A stretch of DNA of 64,000 bases from Bradyrhizobium sp. sBnM-33. Lineage in GTDB: Bacteria > Pseudomonadota > Alphaproteobacteria > Rhizobiales > Xanthobacteraceae. The translations under genes and the position numbers were made by a program. Positions within the stretch are counted from its first letter, which is position 1, and each line of letters begins with the position of its first letter. Under the pieces are notes generated by a model. It was not told where the DNA came from. It saw only the letters and a list, made by a program, of their open reading frames with translations, and ran no database searches. Shown one piece after another: positions 15,980 through 50,626 of this stretch. The stretch spans positions 6,200,001 to 6,264,000 of the forward strand of contig NZ_CP136624.1 of assembly GCF_032917945.1 (NCBI RefSeq). The letters run 5' to 3'.

Positions 15980-16055
15980 CAGACCGGTGTTGCCTTTCGG
16001 TAACCCGCTCTCTGCTCTCAAAGCGATAAGCTGAGTCGTTTTGGGAGACAGGCAT

Positions 16056-16253
16056 ATGGATGTGTATTTGAACACCAGACGTGATCTGCTCGTTGTGAAG
16101 AAGGGATTTCCGATACCGCCTATTGCGCCGCCGGGAAAATGGCGCAAGAGCAAGAAACGGGTTGTCAAAGTTAGCGAGGAGATTAGGTCAGCGCTTCAGG
16201 CGCAGGGCTACTACATGCGCAAGCTGAGAGACCTGCATACTGATCGAGACTAG
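16056..16253 (+). CDS. Small hypothetical protein
   Basis: 65 aa, basic (MDVYLNTRRDLLVVKKGFPI, then PPGKWRKSKKRVVKVSEEIR). GGGAGA lies 7 bases ahead of ATG 16056, which I prefer over the TTG 15 bases earlier. It ends 32 bases before the interrupted SRAP gene. No known domain; the basic core would suit nucleic-acid binding, which is inference only. Confidence 0.6.
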   Translation: MDVYLNTRRDLLVVKKGFPIPPIAPPGKWRKSKKRVVKVSEEIRSALQAQGYYMRKLRDLHTDRD

Positions 16254-16317
16254 TGGGAAACATCTATCGCAGCAGCCCTCCAGAAATGTGCAATCTCTTG
16301 TCTGATTGCGGTTGCTG

Positions 16318-16529
16318 GCACAAGGGTTCAGCTCGTTACCGACAGCCTGCGAGGCTCGCTCTTGTCTACGAGGTCGACGTTTGCCGCCTCACGATGGTAG
16401 TCCGAAGATCGGGAGCTGCTATCTATTAGCGCGTGCTGCAGGCACAGAGGTTGCAGCGCAGTCACCCCGACCTCGTCCTCGCAGGACGTCGTTCCGCCTT
16501 TTCGGCGGATCCGCTGAATTGCTAATCGA
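16318..16529 (-). ncRNA. Candidate bridge/seeker RNA region of the IS1111-type element
   Basis: The roughly 210-base non-coding segment downstream of the transposase is where IS1111-group elements encode their target-choosing RNA (established for the group). It contains compact hairpins: TCCGCC/GGCGGA at 16493-16509 and GTCCT/AGGAC near 16475-16490. I could not identify guide loops matching the SRAP target by eye, so the RNA limits are unknown. Confidence 0.4.
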
Positions 16530-17564
16530 TCATGCGGTCGCCTCCTCGCGGGTCCATCGGAACTCGCTTCCATCTGCCCAGATCCGATGCATCACGATCG
16601 CTAATTTTCGCGCGACCGCCACGACTGCTCGGCGAAGACCGCGTCGCTTGGCCACCCTTACACCCCAGGCTTTCAATGCAGACCAACGCTGGGTGCGGGT
16701 TAGAAGTGCAAGCGCTGCCTGATAAAGTATGGTCCTGAGCATCACATCGCCGCACCTCGAAATAGCGCCATTCCGATCGGTTTCGCCAGATGCGTATTTG
16801 CGTGGCGTAAGGCCAAGATGCGCGCCAACATCGCGGGAGCGTTGAAAGCGATCCGGGTCATCAATAGTTGTTAGAAAAGTGATTGCCGTCAGTGCGCCTA
16901 CGCCTGGTATCGTCATGAGCCGCTGGCATGTTGGCTCGCGGCGTACTATTTCAAGTACCATCTTGTGTAGGACGCCGTACTGTTCACGCAGCGCGGCTCG
17001 AGCCACAAGCATTGGGCGCAGCATCGCCGCGAGTCGTGGATGGCCATCTGTGAGTTCATTCGTTTGCTGCTCAAACGTTACTTGAGATATACGACCAGAC
17101 AGCTTTAAGCCGAAGACGCGTAAGACGCCCCGAATTTCATTCTCGATATCGATCTGCTTAATCAAAAGCGTCTTGCGATTATTGAGAAGCATTCGTAGCT
17201 CCTGGCTCACGTCACCCTTGATATGAACAACGGTGTACCAGCCGACCCGCATTACCTGCGCAATAGCGCGAGCGTCGTTTCGATCGGTCTTAATCGGCAT
17301 CGTCCTAGTCACGCCGCGCAGTCTTCGGGGATCGATGCAGACTGCGTGTAAGCCGGCAGCACGCAGTTCGCCGTACAGCCAACGAGCGAGACCACCAATC
17401 TCAATCCCGACCTTGGCAAGGGGCAATCCGCTTTCGTTGAGCCAGGCAACAATAGCCTCCGGTTCCGAAAATGTTTTGCCCTCGCGAATGACGACGCCAT
17501 TCTCGTCCACAACACAGATAGCCGTCTCCTTTAGCGAAACATCCAGACCGACATAGTGCTTCAT
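16530..17564 (-). CDS. IS110-family transposase
   Basis: 344 aa, intact. The N-terminal RuvC-like DEDD domain starts [20 protein letters not shown] (first catalytic Asp at residue 8), with IEIGG and then [14 protein letters not shown] carrying the later acidic residues near 95. The C-terminal transposase_20 domain has [15 protein letters not shown] near residue 220 and [13 protein letters not shown], with the serine-containing GAISRCGD typical of the family. It is the only gene of the element. No frameshift, so the element may be mobile. Confidence 0.92.
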
Positions 17565-18291
17565 GTTCCCGCTCCTGCTGCCGCCGGCTCGCCGGCTTCC
17601 CTTCCAGGCTGAGCCTTTCGAGCAGCAACCGCAATCACCCCATCTACAGCATCACGACGAACCAAGAAGCGATGCGCGCGCTCTTCCGCGTTATGAACCG
17701 TTACGTCGGCAACCTGCCCCCCATGCCAGGCGTGTTTCCCGATTATCCCGCGCCCGTCATTCGCAATGCGGGCACCGAACGCGAGTTGACCCTGATGCGC
17801 TGGGGCATGCCACCCCCGCCGCGCACCGGCGGGCCACCCGTGACCAACATCCGCAACACGTCGTCTCCGCACTGGAGGAGTTGGCTCAAGCCCGAGAACC
17901 GCTGCCTGGTGCCGGCCAACAGCTTCGCCGAATACGCGCCGGAGCCGAATCCGGAGATCAAGAAGAAGGACGTCGTCTGGTTCGCGATCAACGGCGATCG
18001 GCCGCTGATCTGCTTTGCCGGCATCTGGACCGAGTTCAAGGGTGACCGCGGGACGAAATCGAAACCAATTCCCGGCCCGCACCAGGTCTACGGCTTTCTG
18101 ACGACGTCGCCGAATGCCGTCGTCGAGCCGATCCATGCGACAGCCATGCCGGTCATCCTGATGACGGATGAAGAACGCGACGTCTGGATGCGCGCGCCGT
18201 GGGATGAGGCCAAGGCGCTGCAGCGGCCGTTGCCCGACGACGCGATCAGGATCGTCGCTCGAGGCGCTGACAAAGAAGACAAGGCGGCCGC

Positions 18292-18546
18292 ATGAAATAC
18301 GCCCGCCCCTATGCCGACCCGGCAAAAGCTGCGCGCCGGATCCTCGAGATCGCAAACGCGGTCGAGCCGGTTCAAGGGCGCATCCACGTCGAGAAAATCA
18401 ACGAGCCATTTCTTTTTCGCGACGGCGGCAGCCCGGCCGAGTACGGCGCTGGCCTCAAGCTCGCGATCGAGCGCGGCTGGCTCACGCTACATGAGTCAGG
18501 GACTTTCGTCACCTTCACGCCCGCCGGCGCCGAGCTGTTCGCCTGA
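18292..18546 (+). CDS. Small conserved hypothetical protein (84 aa)
   Basis: 84 aa, starting in an ATGA overlap with the stop of the SRAP gene, so the two are translationally coupled. It reads like a small winged-helix-type fold: [19 protein letters not shown], then [20 protein letters not shown], ending PAGAELFA. Pieces of this gene recur at 19424, 19841 and 21868, fused to DUF3606 remnants. No function is known to me; the linkage to SRAP suggests a DNA-damage context. Confidence 0.75.
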
Positions 18547-50454: not shown

Positions 50455-50626
50455 GCCCGAGCCGATCCATCCGAAGGCGATGCCAGTGATCCAGATGACC
50501 GATGAAGAGCGCGATGTTTGGAGGCGCGCTATGGGATGAGGCAAAGGCGTTGCAGCGACCATTGCAGGATGACACGTTGAAGATTGTGGCGCGTGGGGCT
50601 GACAAGGAAGATCGGACCGCAGCATG
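50455..50626 (+). pseudogene. 3' remnant of a SRAP gene
   Basis: Encodes [20 protein letters not shown], matching the C-terminal quarter of the SRAP protein at 17672-18295 ([20 protein letters not shown]). A small deletion after the Trp codon shifts the frame; the remaining bases still align to the SRAP end (GCTGACAAGGAAGATCGGAC). No 5' part is present. Confidence 0.75.

Follow-up and report, generated by a model that had tools for sequence, protein, structure and literature searches.

An IS1111-group insertion sequence at the first codons of SRAP genes, with a predicted RNA whose guides vary with their targets

The element that interrupts a SRAP gene in the window (the whole stretch analysed, 64,000 nucleotides of the Bradyrhizobium sp. 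sBnM-33 genome) is very probably an insertion sequence of the IS1111 group, with a transposase aimed by an RNA from the noncoding region downstream of its gene, as judged from sequence comparison. The element is about 1,345 bp long (approximately 16299 to 17643) and lies between SRAP codons 4 and 5. To its left, positions 16286-16298 read ATGTGCAATCTCT; positions 17643-17650 read TCTACAGC, and the sequence right of the element, TACAGCATCACG..., is read in the SRAP frame. A core CT (or TCT) is common to both sides, and the rejoined SRAP start is MCNLYSITT(NQ). The joint is ambiguous by 3 bases when seen against two uninterrupted sites in the same genome, which read TGCAATCTCTATTCGAT. Both of these are in damaged SRAP copies (with stops or frameshifts), and they confirm the empty target. 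After the insertion, the upstream piece reads MCNLLSDCGCW... and stops after 47 amino acids, and the ORF at 17672-18295 is recognised as SRAP by Pfam (PF02586, E 1.4e-20). Cys2, the catalytic residue of SRAP (YedK/HMCES-like), is cut off from the SRAP domain by the insertion and is not on the same protein. An earlier note on this DNA had described an IS1111-type element splitting SRAP after codon 4, joints that rejoin to a perfect SRAP start (MCNLYSITTNQ), ends fixed to within 3 bases with CT or TCT common to the joints, and removal of Cys2 from the downstream part. Its coordinates and reading are correct: the transposase domains and SRAP are both found by Pfam, the empty sites agree with the ends, and the downstream piece is without Cys2.

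The transposase ORF carries the Pfam domains DEDD_Tnp_IS110 and Transposase_20, and matches IS621 (8wt6, E 1.2e-15) and ISCro4 (9t56, E 3.8e-13) in the PDB. Its length is within the 330-350 aa range of IS1111 transposases, with IS110-type N- and C-terminal domains, and its translation contains the C-terminal motif GL-P----S(t)G, a feature of the IS1111 group (PMC11187229). The subterminal inverted repeats (sTIRs, TGATTGCGGTTGCTG) are exact across 15 bp, in the group range of 7-17 bp, and the left extension beyond the sTIR is 6-8 bp depending on how the CT core is assigned, the group value being 7 bp. Noncoding sequence is longer downstream of the transposase gene (212 bp from its stop to the right sTIR) than upstream of it (58 bp from the left sTIR to its start).

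Table 1. Features of the interrupted SRAP gene and of the inserted element, in window coordinates.
Feature	Position	Strand	Basis
Upstream SRAP fragment: codons 1-4 (MCNL) and first base of codon 5	16286..16298	+	Sequence; like joint in 8/8 genome copies
Core CT, right-end copy, ambiguous by at most 3 bases	16297..16298	.	Comparison with empty sites TGCAATCTCTATTCGAT
Right-end terminal extension, GACA on element strand	16299..16302	-	Between core and sTIR; RNA loop 16359-16367 matches
Right sTIR, 15 bp	16303..16317	-	Exact inverted copy of 17623-17637
Predicted seekRNA / bridge RNA core	16349..16493	-	Covariance model R1, 155.8 bits (training set includes the window's own copy); covariation
Putative donor-end loop AGACAAGAG, copy of right-end extension	16359..16367	-	Tracks right-end extension over 27 elements
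Predicted target guide 2, CUAAUAG	16423..16429	-	AAUAG complementary to CTATT, SRAP codons 4-6, in 4/7 near-complete copies
Predicted target guide 1, UGCAACCUCU, the sense sequence of SRAP codons 2-5	16446..16455	-	9/10 match in the window's copy
IS1111-type DEDD transposase, 344 aa	16530..17564	-	PF01548, PF02371; NF033542, 255 bits (cut-off 140)
Left sTIR, 15 bp	17623..17637	+	Exact inverted partner of 16303-16317
Left-end terminal extension CCCCAT (ATGGGG on element strand)	17638..17643	+	Between sTIR and core; identical in 7/7 near-complete copies
Core CT, left-end copy	17644..17645	.	Sequence
Downstream SRAP remainder from codon 5, without catalytic Cys2	17645..18295	+	PF02586; frame read

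Eight matches to the element were found by DNA search in the 9.18 Mb genome, a single contig: seven near-complete copies and one 229-bp fragment (L008). The right-end joint pattern, defined as sTIR, extension, three free bases and the antisense of TGYAAY, occurs at eight places, all of them element matches, and the reversed control gave 0. The SRAP-start joint is therefore not due to chance. At the opposite end, all seven near-complete copies lead into SRAP codon 5, and their rejoined starts read MCNLYSITT in six cases and VCNLYSMTK (with a GTG start) in one. No intact SRAP gene of the MCNLY-type subfamily was found among the loci examined here; seven are interrupted, and the rest have frameshifts, are truncated or survive as fragments. 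A single canonical SRAP gene, with an MCGRF start (G000:C1:3157075), was found in the genome and is intact. A C-terminal fragment of another SRAP paralog is present at window positions 50456-50624. At L187 (G000:C1:7555211-7557779), approximately 1.9 kb breaks a SRAP copy close to residue 69 of the 220-residue query, and no end of the element described here was found in the fetched stretch.

Downstream of the transposase stop, the noncoding region can be aligned across 15 sequences and has a consensus structure of 35 pairs. Nine of the 35 pairs are changed on both sides, a number reached in 0/500 shuffles. Of the five covariation measures, four lie above every shuffle, and the fifth, further pair types, does not (197/500 shuffles). 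When partners are slid by 1-3 columns, paired cells fall from 95.8% to at most 43.1%. As the consensus was derived from the same 15 sequences, the covariation counts as support, not as independent proof. The single-sequence fold has z = -2.34 and no clear target loop, and the alignment was therefore used for the structure. In the consensus, an internal loop closed by an invariant stem (CUGC/GCAG) carries guide 1 on its 5' strand and guide 2 on its 3' strand, with a hairpin between them. An Rfam scan of 16000-18000 gave no match up to E = 1. The earlier note had expected guides for the SRAP start within 16318-16529 and had proposed a check of that region for structured RNA. Both expectations are borne out: the covarying R1 match falls in this region, and the internal loop has the two predicted guides, with the reservation that guide 2 fits its own copy poorly beyond the core, only UAG (target TAG beside the core) matching in the window's copy. 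Durrant et al. (PMC11208160) predicted donor-binding parts for IS1111 elements. Here, the right-end extension is present near the 3' end of the RNA. Over 27 elements, with right-end extensions that include GACAAG, CACAAG, GAGAAG, CAGAAG and GACGAC, the shared run averages 5.44/6 vs 4.00 when shuffled (0/5,000 permutations as high), a result favoured by the placing of the right ends of distant elements by eye.

In GTDB genomes, a scan turned up 41 loci that encode relatives. Relatives with 60-98% transposase identity occupy SRAP genes with other starts. An exact SRAP joint at the right end is present in 10 of the 41 (L046, L049, L050, L051, L052, L055, L056, L057, L064 and L081), and SRAP lies beside the left end (tblastn) in nine (L046, L049, L050, L051, L052, L054, L055, L057 and L064). 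The SRAP-inserted relatives are from Bradyrhizobium, Phyllobacterium, Pseudaminobacter, Sphingomonas, Rhizobium and Mesorhizobium. L049 and L051 interrupt an MCNLYN start and have guide 2 UUGUAG for CTACAA, L050 and L052 an MCNRYR start with guide 1 AACCGG for AATCGG, and L057 an MCNDYE start with guide 1 AACGAUU for AACGACT and guide 2 UCGUAG for CTACGA. The rejoined start of L055 is MCNLYR. Two relatives have targets other than SRAP: L048 has guide 1 GUUUACCU for flank GTTTACCT, and in L186, a plasmid copy with 62% transposase identity, GAUAAUGUCC and GAUAAAG match its own flanks.

Some loci depart from the usual arrangement. L056/L089 have a right end at a SRAP start and a left flank that is not SRAP (rejoined MCNLY*); their guide 2, CUAGUAG, fits the left flank CTAATAG with one wobble. 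The right-end joint of L087 (G027), GACAAGGTTGCACAT, is short by two bases, and the rejoined SRAP start is therefore out of frame; L090, a second copy in the same genome, has the usual joint. At L093 (G037:C184:37539-37628), both element ends lie in approximately 90 bp beside a SRAP gene, as if this were an internally deleted remnant. More distant IS1111 relatives with TAATTGC sTIRs (L065, L066 and L067, with L078 similar) lie beside repeats with GGGGTC and GACGCCGAT; the repeats by L065, L066 and L067 resemble the sequence adjoining fragment L008.

As scored on the aligned sequences, the predicted guides match their own targets better than swapped ones, less firmly so for the short guide 2. 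For guide 1, the permutation used 10 representatives of 23 tabled loci, 22 of them having a right-end flank (L053, L054, L087 and others are not among the 10), and true pairs average 9.0/10 vs 7.04 for swapped pairs (2/20,000 swaps as high; 54/20,000 with six target classes). L048, L186, L050 and L057 weigh most in this test, and guide 1 of L049 scores 8.0 with its own target and 9.5 against other SRAP starts. Guide 2 is not significant in a free register (1,210/20,000 for 10 elements and 3,370/20,000 for six classes). With the register fixed at the core, a choice made by eye, as were the right-end motifs of distant elements, guide 2 scores 42/69 vs 29.5 over the 23 rows with a left flank (0/20,000), 22/30 vs 14.7 with the 10 least favourable representatives (17/20,000) and 13.5/18 vs 9.9 with six classes (303/20,000). 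Better-fitting representatives (L003 for this genome, L052 for Sphingomonas and L047 replacing L051) give 24.5/30 vs 13.6 (0/20,000), and the conclusions on guide 2 rest on the other three figures. In the fixed register, guide 2 of the window's copy, L087 and L090 scores at most 0.5/3, and that of L050 scores 1/3 (4.0/8 in the free search). The core copies of L050 and L052 are unequal, with GT at the right end and CT at the left. The elements and their SRAP targets are of common ancestry, and the permutation counts are thus not strict probabilities. L053 and L054 (Sphingomonas) have an RNA nearly that of L050, and their right-end flanks fit guide 1 poorly (5.5 and 4.5 of 10). This comes near to what the earlier note had held to speak against RNA guidance, namely copies at unrelated sites despite the same RNA. 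In the Bradyrhizobium genome itself no such copies were found, since all eight are at a SRAP-start joint. With its copies, its empty sites and guides that change with targets in relatives, the element is, as that note had proposed, a natural test case for RNA-guided insertion in the IS1111 group.

The repeated occurrence at SRAP starts could have arisen from one insertion spread by duplication or recombination of SRAP regions, without repeated targeting. Flanks are indeed common to some copies (L003/L006, 96% upstream; L006/L007, 95% downstream; L001/L002, 87% upstream), and a few may thus derive from duplication or recombination. As an account of the whole set this is improbable, however, because the elements are 98.4-100% identical (21/21 pairs) in strongly diverged surroundings: downstream flanks are 68-95% identical (alignable in 20/21 pairs, over stretches of 104-600 bp), and upstream flanks match in only 4/28 pairs. 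In L002 and L003, the elements are 100% identical, the downstream SRAP flanks 73%, and the upstream flanks do not match. Several copies are thus separate insertions, and the same codon position is also occupied by relatives in other genera. It might also be supposed that the SRAP-like joint at the right end is the element's own sequence, so that target homology is part of the element; the joint is nearly constant across the genome copies, and L056/L089 have a SRAP start on the right-end side only. This has almost no probability, given that the joint varies with the host gene (TGC/TGT, AAC/AAT, ATG/GTG), that most upstream flanks differ, that uninterrupted sites exist, and that the right ends of L048 and L186, in non-SRAP genes, are without a SRAP start.

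Recognition of the conserved SRAP start by the transposase protein, with the RNA matches as a by-product of ancestry, would explain the copies of this genome equally well, as transposase, RNA and target are common to all of them and protein and RNA are inseparable there; the L050-like RNAs of L053 and L054 at poorly matching right-end flanks also fit it. Across relatives, however, the guides change in step with the targets, at MCNRYR (AACCGG) and MCNDYE (AACGAUU) starts and at the non-SRAP targets of L048 and L186, and targets determined by RNA have been published for both groups (PMC11187229, PMC11208160). Targeting by the protein is thus very unlikely, and guidance by the RNA is preferred. 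In the mechanism that follows from this preference, an RNA would be transcribed from the noncoding sequence that follows the transposase gene and would form a complex with the transposase. Of the two guides in the internal loop, guide 1 would bind SRAP codons 2-5 on their antisense strand; the partner of guide 2 would be the sense strand, from the core onward into the codons after it. As a separate loop copies the right-end extension, the RNA could hold the donor end too, and a circular form of the element would recombine at the CT core. The catalytic start MCNLY is what codons 1-5 encode in this SRAP subfamily, so that a single guide could find many paralogs, consistent with an element or fragment at eight sites.

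In a search of the genus, the joint pattern with at most one mismatch was found in 10 of 265 genomes, of which 8/265 were kept, this genome included. The matches in G967 and G085 were rejected as chance, with no transposase homologue in the fetched stretches. In a search of the order, the exact joint was found in 1/397 genomes (this one). With strict filters, R1 found outside this genome only distant IS1111 RNAs of at most 50.2 bits, and genomes with matches were 10/397 and 5/385, this one counted. The SRAP lineage is thus rare in the genomes searched. In viral contigs, the joint pattern was not found.

Some relatives carry additional sequence between the RNA and the right end, where the window-type element has only about 40 bp (distance from L002). 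In L055 and L057 this stretch is approximately 0.9 kb and holds a TauE/SafE ORF (L055:4312-5046 and L057:4168-5010; PF01925, E 4.6e-31 and 2.6e-28). In the Sphingomonas relatives it is 0.5-0.9 kb (approximately 4240-5130 in L050, L052, L053 and L054, and 3330-3930 in L081). By blastn, at 85-94% nucleotide identity, L050 has its left end, transposase and RNA in common with L052, L053 and L054, and its transposase end and RNA in common with L081. A right-end piece of 28-54 bp is common to L050 and L052, L053 and L081; it has no blastn match between L050 and L054, the right end of which was located by motif only. Between these parts, the stretches have no blastn similarity to that of L050 (four comparisons, all against L050), and their four ORFs have no Pfam match. 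The stretch from RNA to right end in the Sphingomonas relatives may thus be an exchangeable cargo slot. In a limited search that took in passages of PMC11208160 and PMC7371123, no variable cargo or passenger genes were found reported for IS1111 elements.

Taken over the relatives, the data lean towards an alphaproteobacterial IS1111 lineage specialised on the SRAP catalytic start, with guides re-tuned to codons 3-6 of subfamilies (L-Y-S, L-Y-N, R-Y-R and D-Y-E) and occasional jumps to other genes, and with an exchangeable cargo slot in some branches (for TauE/SafE permeases in Rhizobium and Mesorhizobium, and for various unknown ORFs in the copies from Sphingomonas). If so, nature would have produced a series of RNA-guided transposons that carry cargo and have been reprogrammed. 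No report of SRAP-start targeting, or of guides that follow SRAP subfamilies, was found in a limited literature search (titles and abstract openings, few subscription papers and no bioRxiv preprints). The cargo slot, if borne out, would mean that RNA-guided IS1111-group elements carry exchangeable genes in nature. What makes the case unusually informative is the parallel variation of target gene, guide and element; its numerous copies, a target gene present in diverged versions, the sites still uninterrupted and the co-changed guides and targets of relatives make it a readable natural experiment. It also suggests why such elements persist, in that the active-site codons of a multicopy, apparently dispensable gene would provide recurrent landing sites, the canonical MCGRF SRAP staying intact.

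Tn7 (at glmS) and homing endonucleases likewise target DNA whose conservation stems from the important protein site that it encodes. Those systems are guided by protein, and Tn7 spares its gene; for the SRAP element, an RNA is predicted to recognise the target, and the target gene is broken. Among the closest known systems are the seekRNA elements ISEc11, ISPa11, ISKpn4 and ISPst6 (Siddiquee et al. 2024, PMC11187229), as described there with a DEDD transposase of 330-350 aa, sTIRs and a noncoding region downstream of the transposase gene. As in the IS1111 seekRNA, the top-strand match is 5' of the bottom-strand match (here guide 1, then guide 2), and insertion is in one orientation at one kind of target (PMC11187229). 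The targets named in passages of that study are attC, REP and the ISEc11 site, whereas here they are SRAP start codons, and RNA activity is experimental for the IS1111 seekRNA (PMC11187229) but predicted for the SRAP element. IS621 and its IS110 bridge RNA (Durrant et al. 2024, PMC11208160) share a target loop with two guides that include the CT core, together with a predicted donor-binding part, and guide-target covariation is an argument common to the IS621 study and to this one. However, the IS110 bridge RNA is upstream of the recombinase gene (PMC11208160), whereas the RNA of the SRAP element is downstream and its sTIRs are long. The proposed mechanism is the published seekRNA/bridge RNA one.
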